Of a stretch of DNA of 64,000 bases, positions 25,383 to 63,553 are shown piece after piece; the stretch's first letter is position 1; each line of letters begins with the position of its first letter. The notes under the pieces were generated by a model that did no database searches, had not been told where the DNA came from, and worked only from the letters and a program-made list of their open reading frames with translations. The stretch comes from Flagellimonas aurea. Lineage in GTDB: Bacteria > Bacteroidota > Bacteroidia > Flavobacteriales > Flavobacteriaceae. Location of the stretch: positions 62,001-126,000 of the forward strand of contig NZ_JAFLNL010000007.1 of the NCBI RefSeq assembly GCF_017313785.1. Reading direction: 5' to 3'. A program made the position numbers and the translations under genes.

Positions 25383-26330
25383 TTATTTCCTCTTCCCTTT
25401 GAAGCGTCGTACAAATTCGCGTCTGTTTTGTACCTCCGCTTTTTTGAAGATGTTTGAAGCGTGTTTAGAAACTGTACCTTCAGCAATAAACAGATAGCTT
25501 CCTATATGCTTGTACGATTTGCCATCGAGTATGAGGTTGGCTACCTCAATTTCTCTTTTAGATAAATCGAGGTTAGAAAAATATTTTAAGATAACAATAT
25601 TTTTTGCTTCTCTAGCATCATCGGTATATCCTAACCTGTGTAAGAATTGTTCTATTTTTAAATCTTGATATATGTTAATACGGATGAGTGCCACGGCAAG
25701 AACAAAGTAGCCAGCATTTACAATCAATTGTTCCACTACCTGAAAATCCCCGAGCGCAACTATAATAGGCATAAGCACTATAGATAATAAAGTAAGATAA
25801 CCAGTGGCAATCCTATCTCTATAAAACCTATTTGTAGCACCCCCTTTTTCCTTATAAAGCTCAATTAACGGTGCGCTAATTTTAACGAGAAATGCAATTG
25901 CGACTGCAACAGGAATAAAAATAAATGAATATTTAGCGATACCAATATCTTGCCAGATGATTAGCGGAAGGACAAAAAAGAAAATAAATGCGGAAATGAG
26001 AATTATCATTAAATGGCGTAGGGTAAAGAATTTTAAATGACCAATGTCAAATTCAGAATACACATAATATACATAGTACAAGGCGGTGTAGATACCTACG
26101 CCGTAAGCCACGATATATTGAATGGTTAGCGGTATAGGAATATTTGTATCTGGGAAAATTCCCGAAAAAAAATTATACGCTATCAACGAGATTGTGAACC
26201 ATATGAAGCGGTTGGTCGACTTACTGTCTCGTTTCTTTAATGAAATAATAACAAAATTCGTAAGCAGTATTAATTGAACCGCTATGATAAAGAAAGTGAC
26301 GATATGCATTTCAGAGCCAAATACCGTCAT
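25383..26330 (-). CDS. Membrane-bound LuxR-type transcription regulator
   Basis: The 315-residue protein has about seven membrane segments in its first 215 residues and a C-terminal LuxR/GerE helix-turn-helix at about 250-310 (LSKREIEVANLILDGKSYKHIGSYLFIAEGTVSKHASNIFKK). This is a 7TM-type sensor joined to a DNA-binding domain, common in Bacteroidetes but of unknown ligand. Its start codon overlaps the stop of the upstream GNAT gene (TGATG), so the two are translated together. An ATG at 26309 is a possible alternative start. The 247-bp gap downstream (25136-25382) contains a repeated ATTACGGATT/ATACGGATA pattern near 25318-25350 but no gene. Confidence 0.8.
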   Translation of the reverse strand: MTVFGSEMHIVTFFIIAVQLILLTNFVIISLKKRDSKSTNRFIWFTISLIAYNFFSGIFPDTNIPIPLTIQYIVAYGVGIYTALYYVYYVYSEFDIGHLKFFTLRHLMIILISAFIFFFVLPLIIWQDIGIAKYSFIFIPVAVAIAFLVKISAPLIELYKEKGGATNRFYRDRIATGYLTLLSIVLMPIIVALGDFQVVEQLIVNAGYFVLAVALIRINIYQDLKIEQFLHRLGYTDDAREAKNIVILKYFSNLDLSKREIEVANLILDGKSYKHIGSYLFIAEGTVSKHASNIFKKAEVQNRREFVRRFKGKRK

Positions 26331-46491: not shown

Positions 46492-46505
46492 TTGATATTT
46501 GTCAA
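46492..46505. promoter_or_regulatory. FNR-like palindrome upstream of the receiver gene
   Basis: TTGATATTTGTCAA fits the FNR consensus TTGAT-N4-ATCAA with one change. The centre lies 57.5 bp from the ATG at 46556, but the usual position for a -7 element (46528-46535) reads CAGAAACC, so activation from here is less certain than at the other boxes. Confidence 0.4.
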
Positions 46506-49469: not shown

Positions 49470-50375
49470 TCAACCTTCAGCTTCTACTTTTTGTTCTTCT
49501 TTAGATTTTATGGAAACACCTTCCATGCCCAATTCTGGAATCACCAATAAAGGTATTTGCGTGTGAAATGCGGTTCGCTTTATTATCGGTTCACGGGTCA
49601 TCTTTTCCATGTAGCTGTGCTGATAGTTCAGCATGGCCAATAAGTGGATGCCTAGTTCTTTGGAGAAAGTTTCCAAGGTGTGGGAAACTGAATTAAGTTC
49701 CGAAACCGTATGCACATAATGCTCCACATCGTTCAGATAGCGGCGAAGCATGTTCAGGTTGAACTGCTGAAGCTCTGTGAGGGCTTTAATGCCATATTGT
49801 ACGTGTACAATACGAATGGTCGCTTTGAACATTTTGGCCAGATCCAAGAGAGGTTCCAATTCAGAAGTAGTATAAAAACGGTTGAAATCTGTAGCAAAAG
49901 CAATTTCAGTTGGTGTAACGTATTCAAAATGGTAAGGAATGGCCAAAACAGGACATTTTCTCACACTTTTGATTATGCGTACGGTATTGCTTCCCATAAA
50001 TACTTCATCCACACCAGAAGCCCCTTTAGTACCGGTTACCACCAGGTTAATGCCGAAAGTTTCAACAATATCTTTTACTTCCTCTACCAAAAGATTAAAG
50101 GAAGAAATGGTCTCAAAGCTGTGATTGGGATTGCCGTATTTGGTCTGGATACGCCTGACGGTCTTGTTCAGCCCCTGTTCAGAATTCTCTCTAACCGCAT
50201 CTACAATGCGTACTCCATCAATCATTTTGGCCATAAATCGGCTGCTCGGGATAACCGGGGTATAGGTGTTGAGCAAGTAAAATGTACAACGCCTGTTGCG
50301 GAACAATTGCATGGCATAATCAATGGCATTCCATGCGTTTTCCGAAAAATCCGTAGGTATTAATATCTTTTGCAT
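49470..50375 (-). CDS. Universal stress protein with two UspA domains
   Basis: The 301-residue protein has two UspA-like halves. The first (about 1-150) keeps the nucleotide-binding motif VVTGTKGASGVDEVFMGSNTVRIIK; the second (about 155-280) lacks it. USPs are cytoplasmic ATP-binding proteins induced under stress such as low oxygen. The promoter carries an FNR-type palindrome (50428-50441) with a -7 element at the same distance as in the cco promoters. It is followed by the dehydratase gene and lies next to fnr. Confidence 0.9.
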   Translation of the reverse strand: MQKILIPTDFSENAWNAIDYAMQLFRNRRCTFYLLNTYTPVIPSSRFMAKMIDGVRIVDAVRENSEQGLNKTVRRIQTKYGNPNHSFETISSFNLLVEEVKDIVETFGINLVVTGTKGASGVDEVFMGSNTVRIIKSVRKCPVLAIPYHFEYVTPTEIAFATDFNRFYTTSELEPLLDLAKMFKATIRIVHVQYGIKALTELQQFNLNMLRRYLNDVEHYVHTVSELNSVSHTLETFSKELGIHLLAMLNYQHSYMEKMTREPIIKRTAFHTQIPLLVIPELGMEGVSIKSKEEQKVEAEG

Positions 50376-50397: not shown

Positions 50398-50441
50398 TAA
50401 AATTAGAACCAAGGGGTAGGGGATACTATGACAATTGTCAG
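50398..50441 (-). promoter_or_regulatory. FNR-type box and -7 element of the universal stress gene
   Basis: TGACAATTGTCA is a perfect palindrome (50429-50440). On the minus strand TAATTTTA (50405-50398), a 7/8 match to TAnnTTTG, begins 29.5 bp from its centre. The ATG is 59.5 bp from the centre. Confidence 0.75.
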
Positions 50442-50456
50442 GTTTTGGAAAATAGA

Positions 50457-51146
50457 CTAAAAGCCTTCGACCATTTCAAGGAGTTTGCGCTCGTCCTTAA
50501 TGCCGATTTTCTTGCCCGAAGTTTGGATTAACCCCTTCTTTTTAAATTCGGAAATAATTCGAATAGCGGATTCTGTAGCGGTTCCAACCACATTGGAAAT
50601 ATCTTCTCTGGATAGGGTAAGTGCCAAGTAACCTTCAGCATCCTCCCCGAAATTGTTTTGAAGATATAAGAAGGCTTCGGCCATTCTTTGCTTTACGGTC
50701 TTTTGGGAAATATTTACGATTACATCATCGGCCTCCTTAAGATCATGGGCCATATGCCGCAATACCTCCAAAGTAAAGTTTGGGTTTTTTTGAAGCGTAT
50801 TGTTGATGCTTTCCTTGGGAATAAAGCACACCTCCATATCATTGATTGCAATGGCGGAAAGGTTGGTGCTTTCTTGGGATATTACGGAACGTTGCCCTAA
50901 AACTTCGCCCTTGCTGGCCAATTTTACGATTTGGTCTTTGCCATTGGCACTAAGCTTGGAAAGCTTGGACACTCCGTTTCGTACACAGTAGACGCCGTTG
51001 AGTTTATCCCCTTCTTCAAAAATGGGCTCACCTTTTTTAATGGTGCGTGTGGTTTTGGAGTCGGAAACCTGTTTTAATTCCTCCTTGCTCATCGCGCGAA
51101 GGGAGTTGAACTGCCTGATGATACAATTTTCACACCTGCTTTCCAT
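50457..51146 (-). CDS. Crp/Fnr-family transcription regulator
   Basis: The start is ATG 51146; the longer frame would start with TTG and run over the promoter. The 229-residue protein has an N-terminal CENCIIRQFNSL cysteine cluster, a cyclic-nucleotide-like beta roll (about 25-135, KKGEPIFEEGDKLNGVYCVRNGV), a dimer helix and a C-terminal HTH (DISNVVGTATESAIRIISEFKKKGLI). Bacteroidetes FNR-like regulators of this type control microaerobic genes. The gene is divergent from ccoI with one shared palindrome halfway between them, consistent with autoregulation. Whether it binds an iron-sulfur cluster cannot be judged from the few Cys seen. Confidence 0.92.
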   Translation of the reverse strand: MESRCENCIIRQFNSLRAMSKEELKQVSDSKTTRTIKKGEPIFEEGDKLNGVYCVRNGVSKLSKLSANGKDQIVKLASKGEVLGQRSVISQESTNLSAIAINDMEVCFIPKESINNTLQKNPNFTLEVLRHMAHDLKEADDVIVNISQKTVKQRMAEAFLYLQNNFGEDAEGYLALTLSREDISNVVGTATESAIRIISEFKKKGLIQTSGKKIGIKDERKLLEMVEGF

Positions 51147-51169
51147 AATGATTAGTTTACCTGAGAGAA

Positions 51170-51243
51170 CAAATTTAAGGGACAAGGAATTATTGGTAAC
51201 TGATAAATATCATATTTTTAGGAAGAAGAGTATTACAAATTTG
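51170..51243. promoter_or_regulatory. Divergent fnr/ccoI promoters with shared FNR box
   Basis: CTGATAAATATCAT (51200-51213) lies midway between the start codons (59.5 and 60.5 bp). TAAATTTG (51177-51170, minus strand) and CAAATTTG (51236-51243, plus strand) are -7 elements, each beginning 29.5 bp from the box centre. Confidence 0.85.
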
Positions 51244-51265
51244 CACTAGGTAAAGCAAATGTGAA

Positions 51266-53650
51266 ATGGCAGATTCGACCTGTTATCATTGTGGAGACGA
51301 ATGCGGTGGCCGCAGCGTTCAATTTGATGATAAGGATTTTTGTTGCAACGGTTGTAAGACCGTCTACGAAATCTTTACATCCAATGGCCTGTCCACCTTC
51401 TACGAAATAGAGGGAAAGGCAGGTACTACCCCGAACGAAATTCGTCAGAAATACGATTTTTTGGACAACCAGGAAATCGCGCAACAACTCTTGGAATTTA
51501 ATGAAGATGGCGTGCAAGTGGTCAGTTTGAGCATTCCTACCATTCATTGCAGTTCCTGTATCTGGGTTTTGGAAAACTTGAACAAACTGCATTCGGCCAT
51601 AAAAGTTTCTCAGGTCGATTTTCCCAAAAAGACCATACGGGTCACTTATAAAACAGAAGACTTTTCCCTTAAAGCCTTGGTGCTCTTATTGGGAAGTATC
51701 GGGTACGCGCCCTATATCTCCTTGGAGGAATACAACAAAAAAGGAAAAAAGGTCGACCGTTCCTTAATTTACAAATTGGGCGTGGCAGGATTTGCCTTCG
51801 GGAACGTAATGCTGTTCTCGTTTCCAGAATATTTTGAGGTAGAAGAATTTTGGTTGGATCAGTACAAGCACGCTTTTCGGTGGTTGATGTTCGCCTTTTC
51901 CTTGCCCGTAGTATTTTATGCGTCACAAGATTATTTCATTTCCGCTTACAAAGGTATCCGCTCCAAATTATTGAATATTGATGTGCCCATCGCACTGGGA
52001 ATTTTGGTGCTCTTTTTAAGAAGCTCGATTGATATCATATTTGACTTGGGCTCTGGATTTTTTGACAGCCTCACGGGCTTGGTGTTCTTTCTATTGTTGG
52101 GCAAGTTCTTTCAGCAGAAGACCTATGCCTACCTATCATTTGAGAGGGATTACAAGTCATATTTTCCCATAGCCGTAACCCGTCTGAAGAAAAACGGGGA
52201 AGAGGAAAACATCCAGATTTACAATATTGAAGTAGGGGATAGAGTCCTGATCCGTAGCCACGAGATTATTCCTGTGGATTGTATCCTCATCAAAGGAACG
52301 GCCGAAATTGATTATAGTTTTGTAACGGGTGAGTCCGATGCCGTATTCAAGGAATCGGGAGAAAAACTGTTTGCAGGCGGAAAGCAACTTTCGGGAGTCT
52401 TGGAAGTTGAGGTGCTAAAATCCGTTTCCCAAAGTTACTTGACCCAACTCTGGGGCAATTCCATATTTTCCAAAGACAAGGCGAGCCAATTCCAAACCCT
52501 TACCGATAGCATAGGCAAACGATTTACCATTGCCGTGTTGAGCATTGCTACGGCTGCCACTATTTTTTGGTTGATTTTTGACCCAAGCTTGGCCCTCAAT
52601 GTGTTCACTTCTGTACTCATTATAGCCTGTCCCTGTGCCATTGCTTTGGCAGCTCCGTTTACCTTGGGCAATATGCTCCGAATTTTTGGAAAATATAAGT
52701 TCTACTTGAAGAACACTAATGTAATCGAACGTTTGGCCAAAATCGATACCGCCATTTTTGATAAAACGGGTACGCTCACCACCAATCAAAAGGATACCAT
52801 CCATTATGAAGGTATGGAGCTTACAGAAGAAGAAACCGCACTTCTAAAAACGACCTTGAGGGCTTCCAACCACCCCTTGAGCCGCTCACTTTACGATATT
52901 TTACAATCCAATTCCATAATGACCTTGGAAGAGTTTCAAGAGCATACGGGAAAGGGTATCGAAGGAAAATATAACCATCATTCCATAAAAGTGGGGTCGG
53001 CATCCTACGTGGGGGAAAGCAAATCCAACTCCATTGCGAACACGGCGGTTTATGTAAGTGCCGATGAAGATGTAAAAGGAAGATTTGTGTTCAAGAATAC
53101 CTATAGGGAGGGGATGAGCCAAATTTTTGATGAACTCTCGAATGATTTGGAACTCGGCATTCTTTCGGGCGATAACGATGGGGAAAAAACCCAATTGCAA
53201 AAAGTGCTTCCAGAAAAGACAAAGATGCTATTTGACCAAAAGCCCGAGGATAAGTTGGACTACATCAAACAGCTACAGGAAAAACACAAGGTTTTGATGG
53301 TGGGCGATGGATTGAACGATGCAGGAGCTTTGGCCCAAAGCGATGTGGGATTGGCAGTTTCGGAGAACATCAATGTGTTTTCGCCCGCTTGTGATGGAAT
53401 TTTGGATGCCAGCAAGTTGAAAATGCTGCCAAAGTTCATAAAACTGTCCAAACGGTCCATGCGCATCATAAAAATGAGCTTTTTGTTGTCGCTCTGCTAC
53501 AATGTGGTGGGACTGTATTTTGCCGTGACAGGCCAGTTGCAGCCCGTGATTGCCGCTATTTTGATGCCTCTGAGTTCCATTAGTATAGTGGTGTTTACCA
53601 CCTTGGCAACAAATTATTTGGGAAAAGAATTAAAAAATTTAGAAAGCTGA
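51266..53650 (+). CDS. ccoI: Copper-transporting P-type ATPase CcoI
   Basis: The 794-residue P1B ATPase has an N-terminal Cys-rich domain (CYHCGDECGG, DFCCNGCKTVYEIF), an HMA-like domain with HCSSCIWV, the transport motif CPC in LIIACPCAIALAAP, the phosphorylation site DKTGTLT and hinge GDGLNDAGAL. This is the CcoI/FixI layout, which supplies copper for assembly of cbb3 oxidase. It is the first gene of the cco cluster and reads divergently from fnr through a shared FNR box. A second FNR box overlaps its stop codon and drives ccoS onward. Confidence 0.94.
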   Translation: MADSTCYHCGDECGGRSVQFDDKDFCCNGCKTVYEIFTSNGLSTFYEIEGKAGTTPNEIRQKYDFLDNQEIAQQLLEFNEDGVQVVSLSIPTIHCSSCIWVLENLNKLHSAIKVSQVDFPKKTIRVTYKTEDFSLKALVLLLGSIGYAPYISLEEYNKKGKKVDRSLIYKLGVAGFAFGNVMLFSFPEYFEVEEFWLDQYKHAFRWLMFAFSLPVVFYASQDYFISAYKGIRSKLLNIDVPIALGILVLFLRSSIDIIFDLGSGFFDSLTGLVFFLLLGKFFQQKTYAYLSFERDYKSYFPIAVTRLKKNGEEENIQIYNIEVGDRVLIRSHEIIPVDCILIKGTAEIDYSFVTGESDAVFKESGEKLFAGGKQLSGVLEVEVLKSVSQSYLTQLWGNSIFSKDKASQFQTLTDSIGKRFTIAVLSIATAATIFWLIFDPSLALNVFTSVLIIACPCAIALAAPFTLGNMLRIFGKYKFYLKNTNVIERLAKIDTAIFDKTGTLTTNQKDTIHYEGMELTEEETALLKTTLRASNHPLSRSLYDILQSNSIMTLEEFQEHTGKGIEGKYNHHSIKVGSASYVGESKSNSIANTAVYVSADEDVKGRFVFKNTYREGMSQIFDELSNDLELGILSGDNDGEKTQLQKVLPEKTKMLFDQKPEDKLDYIKQLQEKHKVLMVGDGLNDAGALAQSDVGLAVSENINVFSPACDGILDASKLKMLPKFIKLSKRSMRIIKMSFLLSLCYNVVGLYFAVTGQLQPVIAAILMPLSSISIVVFTTLATNYLGKELKNLES

Positions 53651-53690
53651 TATATGTCATTTTTTGAGGAAAACCATCAGAGTAGTTTTA
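53647..53690 (+). promoter_or_regulatory. FNR-type box and -7 element upstream of ccoS
   Basis: CTGATATATGTCAT (53647-53660) overlaps the ccoI stop codon. TAGTTTTA (53683-53690), 7/8 of TAnnTTTG, begins 29.5 bp from the box centre; the ccoS ATG is 56.5 bp away. Confidence 0.78.
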
Positions 53691-53709
53691 CACCTAAATT
53701 CAGGCAGGT

Positions 53710-53919
53710 ATGAGTGTTATTTATGTGTTGTTGGCCATAAGCATAACGGTGGCCATAGTCTTTTTTATAGCCTTTGTTTTTTCGGTAAAAAGCGGACAAT
53801 ACGATGATACCTATACCCCATCGGTAAGAATGTTGTTTGAAGATGAGGTGGTCAAGGACAAGGATAAATCAAACCTAAATAAAAAGGAAATCGAACAAAC
53901 TAAAAGCACAAACCAATAA
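53710..53919 (+). CDS. ccoS: cbb3 oxidase assembly protein CcoS
   Basis: The 69-residue protein has one N-terminal membrane helix (MSVIYVLLAISITVAIVFFIAFVF) followed by SGQYDDTYTPSVRMLFEDE, the standard CcoS signature (short helix then Q-[FY]-D-D). It is needed to load cofactors into CcoN. It starts 60 bp after ccoI and ends 2 bp before ccoNO. Confidence 0.94.
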   Translation: MSVIYVLLAISITVAIVFFIAFVFSVKSGQYDDTYTPSVRMLFEDEVVKDKDKSNLNKKEIEQTKSTNQ

Positions 53920-53921
53920 AT

Positions 53922-56123
53922 ATGGAAATACAACAGTTCCGTTACGATAACAAAATCGTACAAAAGTTCTTATACGCCACCATTCTATGGGGCGTAGTGG
54001 GTATGGCAGTAGGTCTCTTGTTGGCCTTTATGTTTTTGTTTCCCAATGTCACCGAAGGTATCTCTTGGTTGAGTTTTGGGCGTTTGCGTCCATTGCATAC
54101 CAATGCCGTGATCTTCGCATTTGTGGGGAACGCCATTTTTGCAGGGGTGTATTACTCGCTGCAACGCTTGCTAAAAGCAAGAATGTTCAGTGATATCCTT
54201 AGCAACATCAACTTCTGGGGGTGGCAATTGATCATTGTGGCTGCAGCGTTGACCTTGCCCTTGGGGTACACCACATCCAAAGAATACGCCGAATTGGAGT
54301 GGCCGATAGATTTGGCCATTGCGGTAGTTTGGGTAATTTTTGGTTGGAACATGATCGGTACCATCTTAAAAAGAAGACAAAGGCACCTCTATGTGGCGAT
54401 TTGGTTCTATCTGGCCACATTTGTAACCGTAGCAGTGCTGCACATCTTCAATAGCTTGGAATTGCCAGTAACGGCCTTGAAGAGTTACTCCGTTTACGCT
54501 GGTGTGCAAGATGCCTTGGTGCAATGGTGGTATGGTCACAATGCGGTGGCATTCTTTTTGACCACACCTTTCTTAGGTTTGATGTACTACTTTGTTCCCA
54601 AAGCGGCCAACCGTCCCATTTATTCCTATAGACTGTCCATTGTCCACTTCTGGTCATTGATATTTATTTATATCTGGGCTGGCCCCCACCATTTGTTGTA
54701 TTCTGCATTGCCTGATTGGGCACAGAACCTCGGTGTGGTATTCTCCATCATGTTGATTGCTCCATCTTGGGGTGGTATGATCAACGGATTGTTGACCCTT
54801 CGCGGTGTATGGGACAAGGTGCGCACCGATGCTACATTAAAATTTATGGTGGTTGCTATCACAGGTTATGGTATGGCCACTTTTGAAGGCCCCATGCTTT
54901 CTTTGAAAAACGTAAACGCCATTGCCCACTTTAGTGACTGGATCATTGCCCACGTTCACGTTGGTGCCTTGGCTTGGAACGGATTCTTGACCTTTGGTAT
55001 GATTTATTGGTTGGTGCCCCGAATGTTCAAAACGGAACTCCACTCCAAAGGATTGGCAAACTTCCACTTCTGGATCGGAACTTTGGGTATTGTATTGTAT
55101 GCCCTGCCCATGTACGTAGCTGGATTCACCCAAGCCTTGATGTGGAAGGAATTCAACCCAGATGGCACCTTGGTCTACGGTAACTTCTTGGAAACCGTTA
55201 CCCAAATTATCCCCATGTACTGGATGAGGGCCATTGGAGGTTCCTTGTACATCTTGGGTATGTTCGTACTGCTGTACAATGTGGTAAGAACAATTAGGTC
55301 GGGCAGTAAGGTCGAAGATGAAGCAGCAGAAGCTCCAGCTTTGGAACGCGTTGCGAAAAGAAGAGTAGCGGGCGAAACCTTCCACAATTGGTTGGAAAGA
55401 AAACCCGTCCAATTGACCATCTTGGCCACCATCGCCATCTTGATTGGTGGTATCATTCAGATTGTACCGACCATTTTGGTGAAATCCAATATTCCTACGA
55501 TTACCAGTGTTAAACCCTATACACCATTAGAGTTGGAAGGGAGGGACCTTTATATTAGAGAAGGCTGTGTGAGCTGTCACTCGCAAATGATTCGTCCGTT
55601 CCGTAGTGAAGTGGAGCGTTATGGCGAATATGCCAAGGCAGGGGAGTTTGTTTACGACCACCCGTTCTTGTGGGGTAGTAAACGTACAGGTCCTGACTTG
55701 CTTCGAGTAGGTGGAAAATATTCCGATAGCTGGCACTTGAACCATATGTACGATCCACAGAGTACGTCCGCAGGTTCCATTATGCCATCGTACGAATGGC
55801 TGGTGACAGATGAGCACGATCGTAGCGATATTCAGGCCAAAATGGAAACCATGGTAAAACTTGGAGTACCTTATACAGAAGAAGATATTGCCAATGCACC
55901 AGAATCCATGGCAGAGCAAGCAGCGTCAATTGAAAAGAGTCTTTACGCAGACCCAGAATTTGAGAGAACGTACGAAGCGGATAAAAAGTACGCACAGGAA
56001 AATGGATTGGATTTTGTGGAAATGCGAGATCGTGAAATCGTAGCCTTGATTGCCTATCTACAGCGATTGGGTACCGATATCAAAATTGAAGGAACAGAAG
56101 AAACTATATCTCAAAACAAATAA
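53922..56123 (+). CDS. ccoNO: cbb3 cytochrome oxidase, fused CcoN-CcoO
   Basis: The 733-residue protein joins the catalytic subunit CcoN (about 1-480) and the cytochrome c subunit CcoO (about 490-733). CcoN shows the heme and copper ligands in GRLRPLHTNAVIF, WYGHNAVAF, AGPHHLLYSALP and IIAHVHVGALAWNG. CcoO has a membrane anchor and one heme c site CVSCH (about 548-552) with a distal Met in SIMPSYEW. It reduces oxygen at very low concentrations and pumps protons. The fusion is usual in Bacteroidetes. It follows ccoS by 2 bp and precedes ccoQ by 2 bp. Confidence 0.96.
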   Translation: MEIQQFRYDNKIVQKFLYATILWGVVGMAVGLLLAFMFLFPNVTEGISWLSFGRLRPLHTNAVIFAFVGNAIFAGVYYSLQRLLKARMFSDILSNINFWGWQLIIVAAALTLPLGYTTSKEYAELEWPIDLAIAVVWVIFGWNMIGTILKRRQRHLYVAIWFYLATFVTVAVLHIFNSLELPVTALKSYSVYAGVQDALVQWWYGHNAVAFFLTTPFLGLMYYFVPKAANRPIYSYRLSIVHFWSLIFIYIWAGPHHLLYSALPDWAQNLGVVFSIMLIAPSWGGMINGLLTLRGVWDKVRTDATLKFMVVAITGYGMATFEGPMLSLKNVNAIAHFSDWIIAHVHVGALAWNGFLTFGMIYWLVPRMFKTELHSKGLANFHFWIGTLGIVLYALPMYVAGFTQALMWKEFNPDGTLVYGNFLETVTQIIPMYWMRAIGGSLYILGMFVLLYNVVRTIRSGSKVEDEAAEAPALERVAKRRVAGETFHNWLERKPVQLTILATIAILIGGIIQIVPTILVKSNIPTITSVKPYTPLELEGRDLYIREGCVSCHSQMIRPFRSEVERYGEYAKAGEFVYDHPFLWGSKRTGPDLLRVGGKYSDSWHLNHMYDPQSTSAGSIMPSYEWLVTDEHDRSDIQAKMETMVKLGVPYTEEDIANAPESMAEQAASIEKSLYADPEFERTYEADKKYAQENGLDFVEMRDREIVALIAYLQRLGTDIKIEGTEETISQNK

Positions 56124-56125
56124 CC

Positions 56126-56314
56126 ATGTTGAAATTTGTAAAAGAACATATGGAAACCATCGACGGGATAGCCAACTATCCCATGGTTTCCCTGCTTATC
56201 TTCTTTGTGTTTTTTGTGTTATTGTTCTGGTGGGTTTTCACCGCCACCAAGGAACACATAAGGGAGATGTCCGAACTGCCTTTGGATAACGATGATCAAC
56301 AAAACAAACTATAA
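56126..56314 (+). CDS. ccoQ: cbb3 oxidase small subunit CcoQ
   Basis: The 62-residue protein has a single membrane helix (YPMVSLLIFFVFFVLLFWWVF, about 17-37) and a polar tail ending EMSELPLDND, the usual CcoQ form. It stabilises the oxidase. It lies 2 bp after ccoNO and 4 bp before the chosen start of ccoP. Confidence 0.88.
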   Translation: MLKFVKEHMETIDGIANYPMVSLLIFFVFFVLLFWWVFTATKEHIREMSELPLDNDDQQNKL

Positions 56315-56318
56315 CATT

Positions 56319-57278
56319 ATGAGCACAAAAACACCTTGGTGGATACGAGTCCCCGTTCTATTCTTTTTGATCTTCGGATTGATGGAATTCTTTATAGACT
56401 CTGGTGATAAACCTGCAATTATCGAATATCCGATCACACAGTTTTTCCTGCTGTTGGTTTTAATGATTCTTATTGCCATAGAACTGATATTGGCTTCTAT
56501 AGAGAACATAATGTTCCAAACCCTTTCAGAAGAAGGCAAGGAGCGCTACTTAGAGGCCAAAAGCAAAAAGTACGAATGGACATGGGCCAAAAATCTCATG
56601 AAAAATTTGACCAAGAGCCGCTCCATTGAGCGCGAAGGGGAAATTGTCCTCGATCACAATTACGATGGTATTCGTGAGTTGGACAACGTATTGCCTCCTT
56701 GGTGGGTATACCTCTTTTATGGCACCATAATTTTCTCGGTAGTGTACTTGGTGCGTTTTCATGTTATTGGGGATTATGATCAAGCACAGGAATACGAACA
56801 AGAAGTTGCTGCTGCACAGCAGGCCATAGAAGAATATAAAAGGACCGCAAAGGATTTGGTGGATGCCAGTACGGTAGAGTTCCTATCGAATGAATCGGAC
56901 TTGGCCGCTGGGGAGAAAATTTTCCAGACCAATTGTGTTGCATGTCATACACAAGATGGAGGTGGGTCCATTGGGCCTAACCTAACCGATAAGTATTGGA
57001 TATTGGGCGGAGGCATCAAAAATGTCTTCACCACAATTTCCGAAGGTGGACGTGACGGTAAAGGGATGATTGCATGGAAGCAAAGCTTAAAGCCTGCGGA
57101 AATAGCCCAGGTGGCCAGTTATGTCATCTCATTGGGCGGAACCACACCCGCCAATCCAAAGGAACCTGAAGGTGAAATTTGGGTGGACCCAAATGCTCCA
57201 GAAGATACCAATGGAACCGAATCTGAAACCCCGCCGACAGAGCAGGTTTCGGACTCAACTGAAGTAGCCATGCAGTAG
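56319..57278 (+). CDS. ccoP: cbb3 oxidase cytochrome c subunit CcoP
   Basis: The start ATG 56319 lies just after the ccoQ stop; an earlier in-frame ATG at 56292 would overlap ccoQ by 23 bp. The 319-residue protein has three membrane helices: two N-terminal (about 10-25 and 37-55) and one at about 127-147. The periplasmic heme c domain carries CVACH with a later GMIAWKQ Met ligand. Only one CxxCH site is present, compared with two in proteobacterial CcoP. The Pro/Glu-rich tail (ETPPTEQVSDS) is probably disordered. It passes electrons from cytochrome c to the oxidase core. Confidence 0.92.
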   Translation: MSTKTPWWIRVPVLFFLIFGLMEFFIDSGDKPAIIEYPITQFFLLLVLMILIAIELILASIENIMFQTLSEEGKERYLEAKSKKYEWTWAKNLMKNLTKSRSIEREGEIVLDHNYDGIRELDNVLPPWWVYLFYGTIIFSVVYLVRFHVIGDYDQAQEYEQEVAAAQQAIEEYKRTAKDLVDASTVEFLSNESDLAAGEKIFQTNCVACHTQDGGGSIGPNLTDKYWILGGGIKNVFTTISEGGRDGKGMIAWKQSLKPAEIAQVASYVISLGGTTPANPKEPEGEIWVDPNAPEDTNGTESETPPTEQVSDSTEVAMQ

Positions 57279-57328
57279 CCTTTTAGGGCCGTCTATGGTA
57301 GTATATGAATCGATAAATCACAAATTCG

Positions 57329-58738
57329 ATGGAAGAGAATTTTAGGGATTCCATAGGCACAATCACAGAAGAAGGAAAAAGGAATTGGATCTTTCCAAAG
57401 AAACCCAGTGGACGGTATTACGATTACCGAAAGTACGTAAGTTACTTTCTGCTGATTTTCTTGATAGCAGCCCCCTTTGTCAAGATCAACGGGCACCAGT
57501 TTTTGTTGTTCAATGTGCTGGATAGGCGCTTCAATATATTCGGGGTTCCATTTTGGCCGCAGGATTTTCACTTGGTGGTGGTGTCCATGATCATTGGAGT
57601 GATTTTCATCGCACTGTTCACAGTGGCCTACGGGCGTATTTTTTGTGGATGGATGTGCCCCCAGACCATTTTTTTGGAAATGGTGTTCCGCCGTATCGAA
57701 TATTGGATAGATGGTGACCGAGGTGCGCAAATGCGATTGGCCAAAGCACCTTGGACGGGCAAGAAGATTCGGAAAAGAGTATTGAAGTGGATCATATTCT
57801 TCATTATCTCCTTTTTAATTGCCAATGTTTTCTTGGCGTACTTGATTGGCAGTGATCAATTGATTTCCTATATCACGGACGGTCCAATGGAGCACCTTGG
57901 CACCATGGTTCCGTTGCTGATTTTCACTGGAGTGTTCTACTTCATCTTCGCGTGGTTCAGGGAGCAGGTGTGCATCATTGCTTGCCCTTATGGAAGATTG
58001 CAAGGGGTATTGCTTGATAATAAATCCATTGTGGTGGCCTATGATCATAAACGGGGCGAAGGTGAAAATGGGCGCAAAAAGTTCAGAAAAAATGAAGACA
58101 GGGAAGCGCTCGGACATGGCGATTGTATTGATTGCCTACAATGTGTAAATGTCTGTCCTACGGGAATAGACATCCGTAACGGGACACAGTTGGAATGTGT
58201 GAACTGTACCGCCTGTATCGATGAGTGCGATCACATTATGGAGAGCATCGATAAGCCCAAAGGGTTGATCAGATACGCCAGTGAAGACGAGATTACCCAT
58301 AAGAACAAGTTCAAGTTTACACCTCGGATGAAGGGGTACACCGCGGTACTTGTTGTTTTGATAGGGGTTTTGATCGGAATGTTGTTTATGCGGAACGAGG
58401 TCGAAGCAAATATTTTACGTTTGCCAGGGCAACTGTACGAGCGAAAAGAGAACAATATCATCAGTAACGTTTACACCTATAAATTGATGAACAAGACCAC
58501 CAAGGATATCGAAAATGTGTCTTTTGAACTGATGTCGCACAATGGAGAAATCAAAATGGTTTCACAAGATAAGTTTACCGTTCCTGCAGAGGAGCTTACG
58601 GAAGGAACGTTGTTCATCGAAATAAACGCTTCGGCATTGAACGGTGATAAGGACAAATTGAAGATTGGTGTATATAGTGGAGAGAAACTCATAGAAACCA
58701 CGGTGACGCAGTTTTTGGCACCAAGGAGTTATAATTAA
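57329..58738 (+). CDS. ccoG: cbb3 oxidase accessory protein CcoG (FixG/RdxA-like)
   Basis: The 469-residue membrane ferredoxin has about five membrane helices, the CGWMCPQTIFLEMVFRRIE and IACPYGRLQGVL motifs, and two 4Fe-4S clusters in GHGDCIDCLQCVNVCPTGI and ECVNCTACIDECD (about 265-305). A C-terminal Ig-like domain follows the last helix. CcoG reduces Cu(II) for delivery to cbb3 oxidase. It starts 50 bp after ccoP and is followed 11 bp later by ccoH. Confidence 0.94.
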   Translation: MEENFRDSIGTITEEGKRNWIFPKKPSGRYYDYRKYVSYFLLIFLIAAPFVKINGHQFLLFNVLDRRFNIFGVPFWPQDFHLVVVSMIIGVIFIALFTVAYGRIFCGWMCPQTIFLEMVFRRIEYWIDGDRGAQMRLAKAPWTGKKIRKRVLKWIIFFIISFLIANVFLAYLIGSDQLISYITDGPMEHLGTMVPLLIFTGVFYFIFAWFREQVCIIACPYGRLQGVLLDNKSIVVAYDHKRGEGENGRKKFRKNEDREALGHGDCIDCLQCVNVCPTGIDIRNGTQLECVNCTACIDECDHIMESIDKPKGLIRYASEDEITHKNKFKFTPRMKGYTAVLVVLIGVLIGMLFMRNEVEANILRLPGQLYERKENNIISNVYTYKLMNKTTKDIENVSFELMSHNGEIKMVSQDKFTVPAEELTEGTLFIEINASALNGDKDKLKIGVYSGEKLIETTVTQFLAPRSYN

Positions 58739-58749
58739 AAAAGAAAATA

Positions 58750-59196
58750 ATGAAAATTAATTGGGGAACAGGAATCGTATTGGCATTTATAGGCTTCATA
58801 AGCTTTATCCTATACTTTGTGGTTAGGATGAGCACGGATGACAGTGCCAACCACGATTTGGTAACGGAGGAATATTATAAGAAAGAATTGGCCTATCAAC
58901 AGCAGATAGATGCATCAAAAACCGCTATGGAAATGAATGCCAACCTTACCGTTGAAAAAACGGCCGAAGGCTTGATGATTTATTTTCCAGAGCGTTTCAA
59001 CCCGAATAAGATAAGTGGAACAGTGTCCCTATACAGACCGTCTAACAAGCATTTGGATACAAACTTTCCTATAAGTTTGTCCAAAACACATTTGCTCATA
59101 CCTGACAATCGCTTGGTGGACGGTCGCTGGGACATTTCCATAAACTGGGAATACGAAGGTAATTCCTTTTTACATAAACAAAAATTGGTGTACTGA
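58750..59196 (+). CDS. ccoH: FixH/CcoH family protein
   Basis: The 148-residue protein has one N-terminal membrane helix (about 5-25, WGTGIVLAFIGFISFILYFVV) followed by the typical DLVTEEYYKKELAYQQQIDA and a beta domain (ISGTVSLYRPSNKHLD, GRWDISINWEYEGNSFLHK). FixH/CcoH proteins assist cbb3 assembly together with CcoG and CcoI. It is 2 bp upstream of the next membrane gene, in one operon. Confidence 0.92.
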   Translation: MKINWGTGIVLAFIGFISFILYFVVRMSTDDSANHDLVTEEYYKKELAYQQQIDASKTAMEMNANLTVEKTAEGLMIYFPERFNPNKISGTVSLYRPSNKHLDTNFPISLSKTHLLIPDNRLVDGRWDISINWEYEGNSFLHKQKLVY

Positions 59197-59198
59197 TC

Positions 59199-59909
59199 AT
59201 GTTGACCTCTGCTTTGGTTCTGGGATTGTTGGGAAGTTTGCACTGCTTGGGCATGTGCGGGCCAATAGCCTTTATGTTGCCATTGGAGCAGAACAACAAT
59301 GTAAAAAAGACGGTACAACTGTCCATTTACCACTTCGGGAGGTTATTGGCCTACGGAATCATTGGATTGCTTTTCGGACTTTTGGGCAAGGGTTTGTCCC
59401 TGTTCGGTATCCAACAGAAGCTTTCCATCGGTATTGGTGCCTTAATGATCATTTTGGTGCTCATTCCTGGAAAATACTTTAACGGGCATAAGCTTTTATC
59501 ACCCGTTTACTCAATTATTGGCAAGGTAAAATCCAAACTTGGGGCCGAACTCAAAAAAAAGACACCCGATACCTTTTTGACCATAGGATTTTTGAACGGC
59601 TTTTTACCCTGTGGTCTGGTATATATGGCGCTTTTGGGGGCCATGGCCATGGGAAACCCTTTGGAAGGTGGGCTCTACATGATGATTTTTGGTTTGGGCA
59701 CCGTACCTTTAATGTCCTTGGTGGTCTATTCCAAAGGAATGTTCAGTACCTCGATAAAATCTAGAATACAGAAATTGATACCGGTATTTGTGGTCATCAT
59801 TGGTGTTTTGTTTATTGTGCGCGGGCTTGGATTGGGAATACCCTATGTTTCCCCAAAGGCAGCCCCGGCCGACACCGTATCGGCGACCATAGAATGCCAT
59901 CAACCCTAA
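59199..59909 (+). CDS. TauE/UreH-like six-helix membrane protein of the cco operon
   Basis: The 236-residue membrane protein opens with LGLLGSLHCLGMCGPIAF, the Cys/His-containing motif of UreH_2/DsbD-like (TauE/SafE-annotated) transporters, and has a matching second motif FLNGFLPCGLVYMALLGAMA. Proteins of this type in cco operons are thought to handle copper or thiol chemistry during oxidase assembly. It follows ccoH by 2 bp. The 3' end overlaps the frame of the next gene only if that gene started upstream of its chosen ATG. Confidence 0.85.
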   Translation: MLTSALVLGLLGSLHCLGMCGPIAFMLPLEQNNNVKKTVQLSIYHFGRLLAYGIIGLLFGLLGKGLSLFGIQQKLSIGIGALMIILVLIPGKYFNGHKLLSPVYSIIGKVKSKLGAELKKKTPDTFLTIGFLNGFLPCGLVYMALLGAMAMGNPLEGGLYMMIFGLGTVPLMSLVVYSKGMFSTSIKSRIQKLIPVFVVIIGVLFIVRGLGLGIPYVSPKAAPADTVSATIECHQP

Positions 59910-59923
59910 AAATCGAATCCAGA

Positions 59924-61192
59924 ATGAAAATAACATCAGCGGAAGAAGCGGTAGGAATTGTAAAATCAGGCGACCGGGTCTTTTTCCAAGGAGCGGCTAT
60001 GACCCCCAACGAATTGATAAATGCACTTTGTGAGCGTCACCATGAGCTGAAGGATGTTGAGATAATTTCTATCCACACCGAAGGAGATGCAAAGTATACC
60101 AGGGCTCCTTATTGCGAAGCGTTTACCTTAAACGCCTGTTTTGTGGGCGGTAATGTTAGGACTTTTGTAAATACCTATATGGGGGACTATATCCCTGTTT
60201 TTTTAAGTGAGATACCTTGGTTGTTTGCCGACGAATATTTGCCTTTGGATGTGGCCTTTGTGCAGGTTTCACCTCCGGACAAACATGGTTATTGTTCTTT
60301 GGGAGTTTCAGTCGATGTGGCTTTGCCCGCGGTAAGGACTGCAAAAAAGATAGTGGCACAGATAAATCCCAAAGTGCCACGTACCCATGGTACGGGGATT
60401 GTCCATATTGACGAAATAGAGTTTGCTATAGAGATCGATCGTCCCATTCACCAGCATGACCCAACTCAGCCATCGGAAGTGGAACAAGAGATTGGTCGGC
60501 ATGTAGCATCTTTGATTGATGACGGGGCTACTTTGCAAATGGGAATAGGAAACATACCAAATGCCGTGCTTTCCAACTTGGGCAACCATAAAAACCTTGG
60601 AATCCATACAGAGATGTTCTCGGATGGAGTTTTGCCTTTATTGGAAAGTGGTGTGATCAATGGGAAAGAAAAAGCAGTGAAAAGAGGTAAAATAGTGAGC
60701 TGTTTTGCCGTGGGCTCCCAAAAACTGTACGACTTTATAGACGATAATCCAATATGTGACTTCAGGGATTCCGGTTATACCAATGATACGGCAAGAATCC
60801 GTAGAAACCCCAAAGCAACTGCAATAAACAGTGCCATAGAAATTGATCTTACAGGACAGGTCTGTGCGGATACCATTGGAGGATACCAGTTCTCTGGTGT
60901 AGGAGGGCAAATGGACTTTATGCGCGGGGCATCCCTTTCAAAAGGAGGTAAGCCTATTATTGCTATGTCCGCCACTACCAAAAAAGGAGTTTCCAAGATA
61001 ACACCATTTTTAAAGCAAGGTGCAGGGGTTACCACAACTCGCGCCCATATGCATTATGTGGCCACTGAGTTCGGTGTCGTTAACTTATTTGGAAAGAATT
61101 TGCAGCAACGTGCCAAAGCACTTATTTCCATTGCGCACCCTGATCATAGGGAAGGTTTGGAAAAGGCGGCATACGATAGGTTTCACGGATGA
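59924..61192 (+). CDS. Acetyl-CoA hydrolase/CoA-transferase family protein
   Basis: The start ATG 59924 comes 14 bp after the preceding stop; an in-frame ATG at 59894 would overlap it. The 422-residue protein has both halves of the acetyl-CoA hydrolase/transferase fold: N-terminal DRVFFQGAAMTPNELINAL and IGNIPNAVLSNL, catalytic Glu in IHTEMFSDG, and C-terminal GVGGQMDFMRGASLSKGGK. Such enzymes move CoA between acetate, succinate or 4-hydroxybutyrate; the exact substrate is open. Placement at the end of the cco operon suggests a role in acetate handling under low oxygen. Confidence 0.88.
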   Translation: MKITSAEEAVGIVKSGDRVFFQGAAMTPNELINALCERHHELKDVEIISIHTEGDAKYTRAPYCEAFTLNACFVGGNVRTFVNTYMGDYIPVFLSEIPWLFADEYLPLDVAFVQVSPPDKHGYCSLGVSVDVALPAVRTAKKIVAQINPKVPRTHGTGIVHIDEIEFAIEIDRPIHQHDPTQPSEVEQEIGRHVASLIDDGATLQMGIGNIPNAVLSNLGNHKNLGIHTEMFSDGVLPLLESGVINGKEKAVKRGKIVSCFAVGSQKLYDFIDDNPICDFRDSGYTNDTARIRRNPKATAINSAIEIDLTGQVCADTIGGYQFSGVGGQMDFMRGASLSKGGKPIIAMSATTKKGVSKITPFLKQGAGVTTTRAHMHYVATEFGVVNLFGKNLQQRAKALISIAHPDHREGLEKAAYDRFHG

Positions 61193-61213
61193 CCTTGGTA
61201 GAAGCAAAGCACT

Positions 61214-61249
61214 AAAAAAAGGGGCAATCTTAAGATTGCCCCTTTTTTT
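61214..61249. terminator. Bidirectional terminator between convergent genes
   Basis: GGGGCAATCTTAAGATTGCCCC (61221-61242, a 22-bp perfect palindrome shown here in its 11-bp halves GGGGCAATCTT and AAGATTGCCCC) is preceded by seven A and followed by seven T. It serves both the CoA-transferase gene and the convergent stress-protein gene. Confidence 0.92.
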
Positions 61250-61282
61250 GAATTACATGAAACCAATCAAAAATGTAATCCT

Positions 61283-62107
61283 TTAAATTTTAAAGGTGAT
61301 TACCGGAGCTTCTGAATGGTTGGCGATATCTTCGCCAATACTGCCCATAAAGAAATGGGATAGACCCCTTCTACCGTGGGTTGGAATGCCTATAAGGTCG
61401 GCTCCAATCTTTTTGCTAAAGTTTATCACTCCTTTTTCCACCGTGTAGTCGTTAAAGATTTCAACCTCCATGCCTACATTGGCCTCGTCCAGGAACTTGG
61501 ATATCTTGGCATAGGCATCGTTGGTGCTCATAAACTCGTCTCCTGGCGTATTAATGTACACCAAATGCAGTTTTGAGCCCAAAAGCTCGGCCATTTTTTT
61601 TGCCTTTTTAAGGGCGGGTACACTTTCTTCCTCAAAATCACTGGCGAAGACGAAGTTTTTTGGGTTAAAATTGTCCACTTCGTTCCCTTTGATGACCAAT
61701 ACAGGTACATCAGAGGTTCTTACTACTCTTTCTGTGTTGGAACCGATGAAGATTTCTTGAAGGCCATCTGCTCCATTGGAACCCATTACAATAAGGTCTG
61801 CTTTGTGTTTTTCGGCGACTTCGGCGACTTCACTGAACACTTTATAGTGTTTGATAACCGGGGTAACCGTGATATCTTTTAGATAAGGCTTGTCCAAAAA
61901 ATCGGAAAAACGTTTCTCACCAAGCTTGATTAGGTGTACCACCTGTTCTTGGGAAATATATCCAGATTCACCCATAATGGCTGGCGAAAGCTCCAACATA
62001 TGTAGGACAAATAGCTCTGCATTTTGTTCCTTGGCCAATGAGGCGGCCACTTTTAGGGCCTTTTCTGATTGATTTGAAAAATCAACGGGTACGATTATAC
62101 TTTTCAT
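61283..62107 (-). CDS. Universal stress protein with two UspA domains (second copy)
   Basis: The 274-residue protein has two complete UspA domains: the first with VMGSNGADGLQEIFIGSNTERVV, the second with GIPTHGRRGLSHFFMGSIGEDIA. Both keep the G-x2-G-x9-G-(S/T) ATP-binding pattern. It lies 17 bp downstream of hemN on the same strand, so it is probably transcribed from the FNR-controlled hemN promoter. It is a paralogue of the stress protein at 49470-50375, which has a degenerate second domain. Confidence 0.92.
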   Translation of the reverse strand: MKSIIVPVDFSNQSEKALKVAASLAKEQNAELFVLHMLELSPAIMGESGYISQEQVVHLIKLGEKRFSDFLDKPYLKDITVTPVIKHYKVFSEVAEVAEKHKADLIVMGSNGADGLQEIFIGSNTERVVRTSDVPVLVIKGNEVDNFNPKNFVFASDFEEESVPALKKAKKMAELLGSKLHLVYINTPGDEFMSTNDAYAKISKFLDEANVGMEVEIFNDYTVEKGVINFSKKIGADLIGIPTHGRRGLSHFFMGSIGEDIANHSEAPVITFKI

Positions 62108-62124
62108 TTTTTTGCTTTTTTAGG

Positions 62125-63492
62125 TTAAACGGTCATGGAAAATATTCGGGTATTCGGTTTTTTACGGTGCATTTTAAGGTCAAAAGCCATGCTGATATTT
62201 CTGACAAAAGGCCTGCCTTTGTCCGTCACCTTTATGGTTTTGTCCTCTATTTTAACAAGGCCATCTGCTTCCAGTTCGGATAGGTTGGCCAGAATGTTCT
62301 CAAAATCAACGACTTCTTTTTCTTCAGGTTTCCAATTTGTCTCAAATCGACACATAATATTGAGGATATGTCTTCTCAAAATTTGGTCTTCCTCATTTAA
62401 AATGTGTCCTCTAAAAATAGGGATTACACCATGTGAAACCAAATTCTGGTATTCTTCCACATTCTTTACATTTTGGGCAAACCCGTACCAGCTATCACTG
62501 ATGCTGGAGGCTCCCAAACCAATCATCAGTTTGGTTTTGGAGGGGGTGTAGCCCATAAAATTTCGGTGTAGGGTTCCATTTTCCAAGGCTTGGTATAGAC
62601 TGTCCGTGGGAAGGGCAAAATGGTCCATGCCAACATCTTTATAGCCAAACTCTGCAAGCATTCTTTTGCCCATTTCGTACTGTGCTTTTTTCTCTATGGA
62701 AGAGGGAAGGTCCTCTTCTTTATACCCGCGCTGACCATTTCCCTTGAGCCACGGCACATGTGCATAGCTGTAGAAGGCTATTCGGTCCGGTTTTATGGCA
62801 TTGGTCTTCATTATGGTCTGCTCCACATCACTGCAATCTTGAAAAGGAAGACCGTAAATAATATCGTGCCCAACCGAGGTGTACCCTGTCTCACGGGCCC
62901 ACTCGGTAACATTTTTTACATTTTCAAACGGCTGAATCCTGTTGATGGCCCGTTGAACGGTAAGGTTGTAATCTTGTACGCCAAAACATACTCTCCTAAA
63001 TCCTACACCGTAAAGGACCTGTAAATGTTCTTTGGTGGTGTTGTTGGGGTGCCCTTCAAAACTAAATTCAATGGTATCCGCCTTTTTACTAAGTCGTGTA
63101 ATACCGTTGATCAACATTTTTAAGTTCTCAGGCGAAAAGAAGGTCGGTGTTCCACCACCAAGGTGAAGTTCTTTGATTACAGGTCTAGACCCCATCAATT
63201 CCACATAAAGTTCCCATTCCTTTAAAACAGCTGTGATATAAGGAGATTCCACTTCGTGCCTTTTAGTGATGCGCTTATGGCAACCACAAAAGGTGCACAT
63301 GCTCTCGCAAAAGGGCAGATGTATATAAATGCTGATTCCTTCCTCGGGGTTTTCCTCGAAAGCTTGGATTACGCTTGACTTCCATTTTTTTCCTGAAAAA
63401 GTTTCCATGTCCCAATAGGGAACAGTAGGATAACTCGTGTATCGAGGACCTGGAACATTATATTTTTGAATTAATTCGCACATAAGCTGCAT
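62125..63492 (-). CDS. hemN: Oxygen-independent coproporphyrinogen III oxidase HemN
   Basis: The 455-residue radical SAM enzyme makes protoporphyrinogen IX without oxygen, supplying heme for the cbb3 oxidase. The opening YNVPGPRYTSYPTVPYW and the cluster motif CESMCTFCGC (about 62-71) are diagnostic; LHLGGGTPTFFSPENL and RVCFGVQDYNLTVQRAINR follow. An alternative ATG lies at 63483 (MCELIQKYN). The promoter has an FNR-type box with a perfect -7 element. The second universal stress gene follows 17 bp downstream. Confidence 0.95.
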   Translation of the reverse strand: MQLMCELIQKYNVPGPRYTSYPTVPYWDMETFSGKKWKSSVIQAFEENPEEGISIYIHLPFCESMCTFCGCHKRITKRHEVESPYITAVLKEWELYVELMGSRPVIKELHLGGGTPTFFSPENLKMLINGITRLSKKADTIEFSFEGHPNNTTKEHLQVLYGVGFRRVCFGVQDYNLTVQRAINRIQPFENVKNVTEWARETGYTSVGHDIIYGLPFQDCSDVEQTIMKTNAIKPDRIAFYSYAHVPWLKGNGQRGYKEEDLPSSIEKKAQYEMGKRMLAEFGYKDVGMDHFALPTDSLYQALENGTLHRNFMGYTPSKTKLMIGLGASSISDSWYGFAQNVKNVEEYQNLVSHGVIPIFRGHILNEEDQILRRHILNIMCRFETNWKPEEKEVVDFENILANLSELEADGLVKIEDKTIKVTDKGRPFVRNISMAFDLKMHRKKPNTRIFSMTV

Positions 63493-63509
63493 ACCATTAC
63501 ATTATAGGT

Positions 63510-63553
63510 CAAATGTACTTTTGATGGTTTGCAAAAAACATGATAAATGTCAG
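63510..63553 (-). promoter_or_regulatory. FNR-type box and -7 element of hemN
   Basis: TGATAAATGTCA (63541-63552) with TACATTTG (63517-63510 on the minus strand), an 8/8 match to TAnnTTTG, beginning 29.5 bp from the box centre. The ATG at 63492 is 54.5 bp from the centre. Confidence 0.85.

Follow-up and report, generated by a model that had tools for sequence, protein, structure and literature searches.

A box at fixed promoter spacing marks a candidate FNR-type regulon, probably shared by two regulators, in Flagellimonas aurea

Short palindromes stand before genes of respiration, heme synthesis and stress proteins in a 64,000-nucleotide stretch of the Flagellimonas aurea genome (contig NZ_JAFLNL010000007.1, positions 62,001 to 126,000, forward strand), which is called the window throughout. 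This locus raises the question of whether the palindromes are operator sites of one regulon and, if so, which regulator reads them. A first reading of the letters alone (the original prediction) had ascribed them to class II activation by the CRP/FNR-family regulator (Fnr) encoded in the middle of the locus. Our analysis points to a conserved class II regulon with Fnr, carrying a proposed Fe-S cluster, as main regulator and with a protein in which a receiver domain is fused to a CRP protein (REC-CRP) as probable second activator; we put the probability of this reading at about 0.83.

Palindromes, −7 elements and their spacing

Four palindromes of the type TGAY-N4-RTCA were found exactly where they had been predicted, and together they serve five promoter directions. 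In all five, an element matching the −7 consensus TAnnTTTG at 7 or 8 of its 8 positions lies at a gap of 23 base pairs (bp), so that its first base and the palindrome centre are 29.5 bp apart. The distance from the box centre to the start codon is 54.5-60.5 bp (56.5 bp for the ccoS ATG at 53710). Both distances agreed with those claimed. The sites and the genes behind them are the following.

49470-50375, minus strand: usp, universal stress protein (PF00582), candidate target
50398-50405, minus strand: −7 element TAATTTTA of usp, gap 23 bp
50429-50440: FNR-type box TGACAATTGTCA of usp, a TGAY-N4-RTCA palindrome
50457-51146, minus strand: fnr, CRP/FNR regulator of 229 residues with C5, C8, C54 and C107 and the recognition helix GTATESAIR
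51170-51177, minus strand: −7 element TAAATTTG of fnr, gap 23 bp
51201-51212: palindromic box TGATAAATATCA, common to fnr and ccoI and lying between both
51236-51243, plus strand: −7 element CAAATTTG of ccoI, gap 23 bp
51266-53650, plus strand: ccoI-type heavy-metal P-type ATPase, candidate target
53648-53659: palindromic box TGATATATGTCA of ccoS
53683-53690, plus strand: −7 element TAGTTTTA of ccoS, gap 23 bp
53710-53919, plus strand: ccoS (FixS; PF03597), first gene ahead of the cbb3 oxidase genes
62125-63492, minus strand: hemN, oxygen-independent coproporphyrinogen III oxidase (TIGR00538, 431 bits, cut-off 325), candidate target
63510-63517, minus strand: −7 element TACATTTG of hemN, gap 23 bp
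63541-63552: palindromic box TGATAAATGTCA of hemN

According to the main text of a study on Flavobacterium psychrophilum, mapped transcription starts place the sigma-A box TAnnTTTG at −12 to −5 (PMC9723704). A −7 element at −12 combined with the 29.5-bp distance would put the operator centre at −41.5, the class II position that had been predicted for these promoters; this placement is borrowed from the mapped starts of another flavobacterium, not from the source species. The cbb3 oxidase and enzymes of heme synthesis are strongly induced when oxygen is limiting, according to the same text, from which the words Fnr and Crp are absent (supplements aside). The rigid spacing to the −7 element would also suit a box that forms part of an extended sigma-factor recognition sequence and is no activator site. 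We regard this as highly improbable: the palindrome has symmetric AAAA/TTTT flanks, a single box serves both directions at fnr/ccoI, and the F. psychrophilum text on sigma motifs (logos aside) describes no such element (PMC9723704). An operator for an activator is the reading that we follow below.

The window contains six such palindromes, four of which flank the cbb3 oxidase locus and hemN. As a 12-mer, the palindrome alone occurs at chance level (6 found against 4.52 ± 2.05 expected), and its enrichment was therefore rejected as evidence. A −7 element stands at the fixed distance in 5 of the 12 box directions, with a binomial P of 5.4e-8 (per-position probability 0.0094) that becomes 2.2e-6 once corrected for 40 gaps. 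The two other palindromes (26038-26049 and 46493-46504) have no −7 element at a 23-bp gap, and beyond the five directions no exact palindrome of the window shows the full geometry. One of these two, TGATATTTGTCA at 46493-46504, lies 57.5 bp before a response-regulator ATG (46556); lacking the −7 element, it was rejected as an extra regulon member.

The genome scan that had been proposed as a check returned the same spacing. An exact search for box-N{8,38}-TANNTTTG in the whole genome gave 22 matches over the 31 gaps allowed, 14 of them at exactly 23 bp; the reversed-pattern control for this variable-gap search gave 8 matches. With the gap held at 23 bp and at most one mismatch, we found 47 directions, belonging to 42 distinct boxes, whereas the reversed pattern gave 5. 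For about 30 of the 47, reading showed a possible start codon at 50-70 bp from the centre; a few of these are weak frames.

Conservation at orthologous promoters, on which the original prediction had staked its case, was extensive. The class II element precedes ccoS in 69/69, ccoI in 71/75, usp in 44/49 and hemN in 27/30 promoters. Counts for fnr, ccoI, ccoS and usp refer to those of 80 named loci that have the gene and at least 60 bp upstream (80, 75, 69 and 49, respectively), and for hemN, 60 genomes gave 42 strong matches, of which the best 30, the source genome included, were used; since the sampled genomes are related, none of these counts are independent. Every one of the 80 named loci has at least one box/−7 pair at gap 23. 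In total, there are 241 such pairs when the −7 element matches at least 5 of 6 specified bases; among the other gaps from 5 to 44, gap 9 has 30 pairs and each of the remaining 38 has at most 14. A box-anchored alignment showed conservation of AAAAnnTGAYnnnnRTCAtnTTTT and of TAnnTTTG, whereas the spacer between them is not conserved. At the targets and the orthologous promoters alike, the putative operator sequence TGAY-N4-RTCA is of the TGAT-N4-ATCA type.

Beyond these loci, 41 genomes of the source organism's family carry 348 exact gap-23 elements against 15 at gap 19, one arbitrary control gap, and 8 with the pattern reversed (counts and group assignments for the 41 compiled by hand). At least two exact elements are present in 40 of the 41. 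Among 395 genomes of the phylum, a gap-23 element was found in 162 and the gap-19 control in 85. The 86 genomes of family f25, tallied by eye as a negative control, show no excess at gap 23 (8 elements, compared with 9 at gap 19) and no Fnr match better than 4e-11. The idea that a careful reader had merely singled out a chance co-occurrence could draw on the chance-level number of palindromes in the window, but the spacing peak recurs in the genome, in the 41 family genomes and in the 80 named loci. These counts already refute it, and we give it practically no weight. The highest numbers of exact gap-23 elements among the 395 genomes, 28 and 30, belong to G290 and G325 of family f54, which carry a four-cysteine Fnr of 41% identity.

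The predicted gene set of respiration, heme synthesis and stress proteins held, with conserved elements at ccoS, ccoI, usp and hemN. Besides fnr, ccoI, ccoS, hemN and several universal stress proteins, the first genes behind the 47 directions encode a pyridine-nucleotide oxidoreductase that weakly resembles sulfide:quinone reductase (60 bits, cut-off 525), a cytochrome c with a divergent Rrf2 regulator, OmpW, the neighbouring YceI and pyruvate phosphate dikinase, a ribosome-hibernation-type protein (PF02482), DnaJ, a thioredoxin-like protein and a malate dehydrogenase-like enzyme. Subunit I of bd oxidase is a less certain member, because its box has one mismatch and lies about 320 bp upstream. 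Another one-mismatch site (G000:C23:503019-503061, where G000 is this genome) precedes a 600-residue protein (L043:694-2493, minus strand) with no Pfam or NCBIfam match. Three further genes of the window lie downstream of the targets; ccoNO may be cotranscribed with ccoS, and the second usp with hemN.

53922-56123, plus strand: ccoNO fusion, cbb3 oxidase subunits I/II, 3′ of ccoS
56292-57278, plus strand: ccoP-like cytochrome c subunit (best NCBIfam match TIGR00782, 117 bits, under the cut-off of 180)
61283-62107, minus strand: second usp, 3′ of hemN on the same strand

The Fnr protein and its cysteines

Fnr scores over the cut-off for PF00027, PF13545 and PF00325 and thus has a cyclic nucleotide-binding-like domain and a Crp-type helix-turn-helix (HTH) domain; the nearest named Fnr is 94% identical. 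When it was aligned to the solved FNR of Aliivibrio fischeri, C5, C8 and C107 matched three cysteines. The classical cluster cysteines are C20, C23, C29 and C122; N14 occupies the position of C29, and C54 is invariant instead. All four cysteines C5, C8, C54 and C107 are present in 80/80 named and 30/30 family orthologues. Among 20 more distant homologues, 13 have all four and the 5 from family f5 have none at those positions (13/15 when f5 is excluded). The homologues of G107 and G331 lack C54 alone and have an extra N-terminal cysteine in a C-x2-C-x4-C arrangement. The cysteine set is missing in 8/8 f5 genomes (5 aligned, the other three read without a new alignment), and four of the eight have a cysteine one column before 107. 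These f5 homologues keep the helix GTATESAIR, with slightly different first residues in G350. Because the four cysteines are jointly present and jointly lost, the pattern suggests one metal site with C54 as the fourth ligand. The beta strands of C54 and C107 are presumably neighbours in the CRP/FNR fold.

An AlphaFold model of Fnr (mean predicted local distance difference test score 79, predicted template modeling score 0.67) showed the CRP/FNR fold in a structure comparison. The best match was 2gau, a Crp/Fnr-family protein of Porphyromonas gingivalis (Z 25.5, root mean square deviation 2.8, 217 aligned residues), and the A. fischeri FNR structures followed at Z of about 20-21; many CRP/FNR proteins were matched, and the comparison does not separate FNR from CRP. 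The order of these matches would agree with a carbon-responsive CRP/MalR-like protein, and so would the text of a reactor microbiome study that places a CRP/FNR homologue from a Flavobacteriales metagenome-assembled genome, a possible orthologue, near MalR and predicts it to be carbon-sensing (PMC8510549). We nevertheless consider a carbon regulator very unlikely: there are four invariant cysteines, three of them aligned with FNR cluster ligands, and the targets found conserved belong to a cbb3 oxidase and to oxygen-independent heme synthesis. Fnr would instead sense oxygen.

REC-CRP and its kinase as a probable second reader

Several results weigh against the regulon as set out so far. By the reversed control, about 5 of the 47 genome matches are expected by chance, and several matches lie inside open frames, where they are probably background, or far from a start codon. 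The class II element stands at the fnr promoter in only 31 of 80 loci. Fnr does not reach the NCBIfam Fnr model PRK11161 (113 bits, cut-off 228). Family f5 has 36 gap-23 elements in 8 genomes, though its Fnr homologue is without the cysteines. Finally, gap-23 elements, some of them at core genes, persist in genomes without this Fnr. Fnr is therefore not the sole reader of the box, and we rejected it as the explanation of all boxes.

The low score under this curated model and the vacant classical cysteine position are the reasons why we class the regulator, on its protein signature, as an FNR variant and not as a canonical FNR. Its expected mode of action is FNR-like. As for f5, most of its gap-23 boxes (L309-L338) are flanked by TCATAAA and precede different targets, and some lie near small CRP paralogues. 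Of the 36 elements, 30 were annotated and, by reading, none precedes hemN, cco or usp (the f5 hemN and cco promoters were not examined). These boxes probably form a separate CRP-type regulon, and with such flanks and targets an oxygen function was not to be read from f5 genomes.

The claim that fnr itself is among the box promoters holds in the window and is not uniform in relatives. The 80 fnr promoters divide into 28 with gap 23 only, 24 with gap 9 only, 3 with both and 25 with neither; fnr thus accounts, with 27/80, for almost the whole gap-9 peak. Promoters with gap 9 only include L134, L136, L138, L143 and L169-L173. If the −7 element is at −12, the box centre of the gap-9 promoters falls on −27.5, over the promoter. 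Fnr may thus activate its own gene in some genera and repress it in others.

Three Crp-type HTH proteins exceed the cut-off in this genome. One of them, an HTH_Crp_2 protein (C1:21534), was rejected as a box reader, its helix TSRVVVSR being different. The one that remains apart from Fnr is REC-CRP (G000:C22:432435-433478; 348 residues), whose helix GIATESLIR matches GTATESAIR of Fnr. Its gene overlaps the end of a gene for a histidine kinase with two PAS domains (the pair at L039:7432-9952, equal to G000:C22:432432-434952) and lies with it among usp, dnaJ and other box-bearing genes. A box paired with a 7/8 −7 element precedes the kinase gene, 57.5 bp upstream of an ATG. Because the recognition helices match, REC-CRP would probably share the boxes of Fnr as a second activator. 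For the original prediction this means that the regulator encoded in mid-locus stands as the proposed main regulator but is an FNR variant and probably not the only user of the boxes.

In the 24 REC-CRP proteins that we read, the helix is of the E(S/T)xIR type in 17 and of the ETVSR type in 7. The ETVSR group (L216-L222) comes from six genomes of genus g10 and from G229 of f5; the kinase PAS domain is closely FixL-like in six of these seven (not in L216), with the histidine and an IIGxxR stretch. Among the 41 family genomes, 24 have Fnr without an E(S/T)xIR REC-CRP, 7 have REC-CRP without a close Fnr, and 10 have both; these groups carry 169, 47 and 132 exact elements, respectively. Fnr matches reach 1.9e-37 at best in the seven genomes, whereas each of the other 34 has one of 4.2e-63 or better. 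The Fnr profile A1 picks out REC-CRP alone in five of the seven; the two exceptions, G107 and G331, retain a diverged Fnr-like protein and a weak match. Target annotation in the seven covers 30 of the 47 elements and includes hemN in G072, G374 and G386, ccoN 250-284 bp downstream (as in the window) in these three and in G331, and usp in G072, G374 and G253. Of the five genomes in which only REC-CRP was found, three keep the hemN and cco boxes and a fourth the usp box.

These observations could mean that the boxes are read mainly by REC-CRP, with Fnr as an accessory or competitor. Apart from the matching helix, the 47 elements against 2 at gap 19 in genomes without a close Fnr and their annotated targets favour this, as does the density of 3.3 elements per Mb with both regulators against 1.6 with Fnr only; this comparison is, however, confounded by descent, many Fnr-only genomes belonging to genus g10. 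We consider it unlikely that REC-CRP takes the leading role, since the 24 genomes with Fnr and no E(S/T)xIR REC-CRP carry 169 exact elements against 10 at gap 19, fnr itself lies inside the locus, and no annotated element precedes hemN, ccoN or usp in G149 (3/3 annotated) or G107 (5/9). Fnr as main regulator with REC-CRP at its side is the arrangement that we prefer.

The first PAS domain of the kinase indicates what REC-CRP might respond to. Of its 15 sequence matches in the PDB, 13 are FixL, DosP, yddU or a heme PAS sensor, with FixL as the best (E 2.7e-11) and DosP next; a multi-sensor kinase and a CTR1-like protein make up the remainder. This kinase and those of 7/7 genomes without a close Fnr have a histidine in alignment with the heme ligand of FixL. 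A leucine (L) stands here at the position aligned with a FixL arginine, the distal residue. The protein is classed as a FixL/DosP-like PAS kinase, a similarity that is no proof of heme. In the ten genomes with both regulators, four kinases have the FixL-type histidine, three are LOV-like and three are neither. In the LOV-like kinases (L202, L206 and L208, from G122, G245 and G217), a LOV-like first PAS domain with the motif NCRFLQ takes the place of the FixL/DosP-like one, which suggests a light input to the same REC-CRP regulator.

In the mechanism that we propose, the palindromes would be operator sites of CRP/FNR-family activators, placed 23 bp before the sigma-A −7 element TAnnTTTG and centred at the class II activation position of −41.5. 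Fnr would hold an oxygen-labile [4Fe-4S] cluster by C5, C8, C54 and C107. Under oxygen limitation, it would bind the boxes and activate by recruiting RNA polymerase to fnr, ccoI, ccoS-NOP, hemN and usp and, genome-wide, at about 40 promoter directions. The REC-CRP response regulator encoded beside the PAS kinase would act as the second activator on the same boxes. A fuller account is more tentative. In this account, two independent sensors would act on the same operator in one flavobacterial low-oxygen regulon, namely an FNR variant with a relocated fourth ligand of the [4Fe-4S] cluster (C54, in a beta strand) and a FixL/DosP-like heme-PAS kinase that phosphorylates REC-CRP, which would be FixJ and FixK in one polypeptide. 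Some lineages would have lost Fnr and kept the core targets under REC-CRP, one family would have lost the cluster cysteines, some kinases would have exchanged the heme-like PAS domain for a LOV-like one and so brought light into the oxygen regulon, and fnr would have switched between activating and blocking box positions. As a whole, we hold this possible, with the odds somewhat against it.

No description of an FNR regulon in Flavobacteriaceae was found in the literature searched, which left subscription papers mostly outside. Thanks to the fixed geometry, candidate regulons can be read off the sequences of family members. From the cysteine pattern, a textbook oxygen sensor is predicted to have a different set of cluster ligands here, and from the match of the recognition helices we would expect an Fe-S sensor and a two-component sensor to exert dual control.

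Comparison with known oxygen regulators

FNR of Escherichia coli and A. fischeri and ANR of Pseudomonas resemble the proposed system in the CRP/FNR fold, the three aligned cysteines, the TGAT...ATCA core of the palindrome and the class II position. Genes for cbb3 oxidase and Usp proteins are likewise under FNR and ANR control. In Pseudomonas, one study counts hemN and the terminal oxidase cioA among the Anr core (PMC6588701). The fourth invariant cysteine here is C54 in a beta strand, in contrast to the C29 position of FNR, and the recognition helix has E-S-A-I-R where A. fischeri FNR has E-T-I-S-R. The outer positions of the half-sites are loose, the −7 element is the Bacteroidota TAnnTTTG, and the score lies under the NCBIfam Fnr cut-off, all unlike FNR and ANR. 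The Fnr homologue of family f5 belongs to the same protein family and shares the helix GTATESAIR but differs by its four empty cysteine positions.

In rhizobia, several oxygen sensors converge on fixNOQP through hFixL-FxkR-FixK and FnrN, as the text of one report describes (PMC7888657). F. aurea appears to be alike in this respect: a FixL-like kinase path and an FNR of Fe-S type would meet at one type of operator and at cbb3 genes. In contrast to the rhizobial system, the receiver and the FixK-like activator are fused here in the 348 residues of REC-CRP, and the heme of the kinase is only putative.

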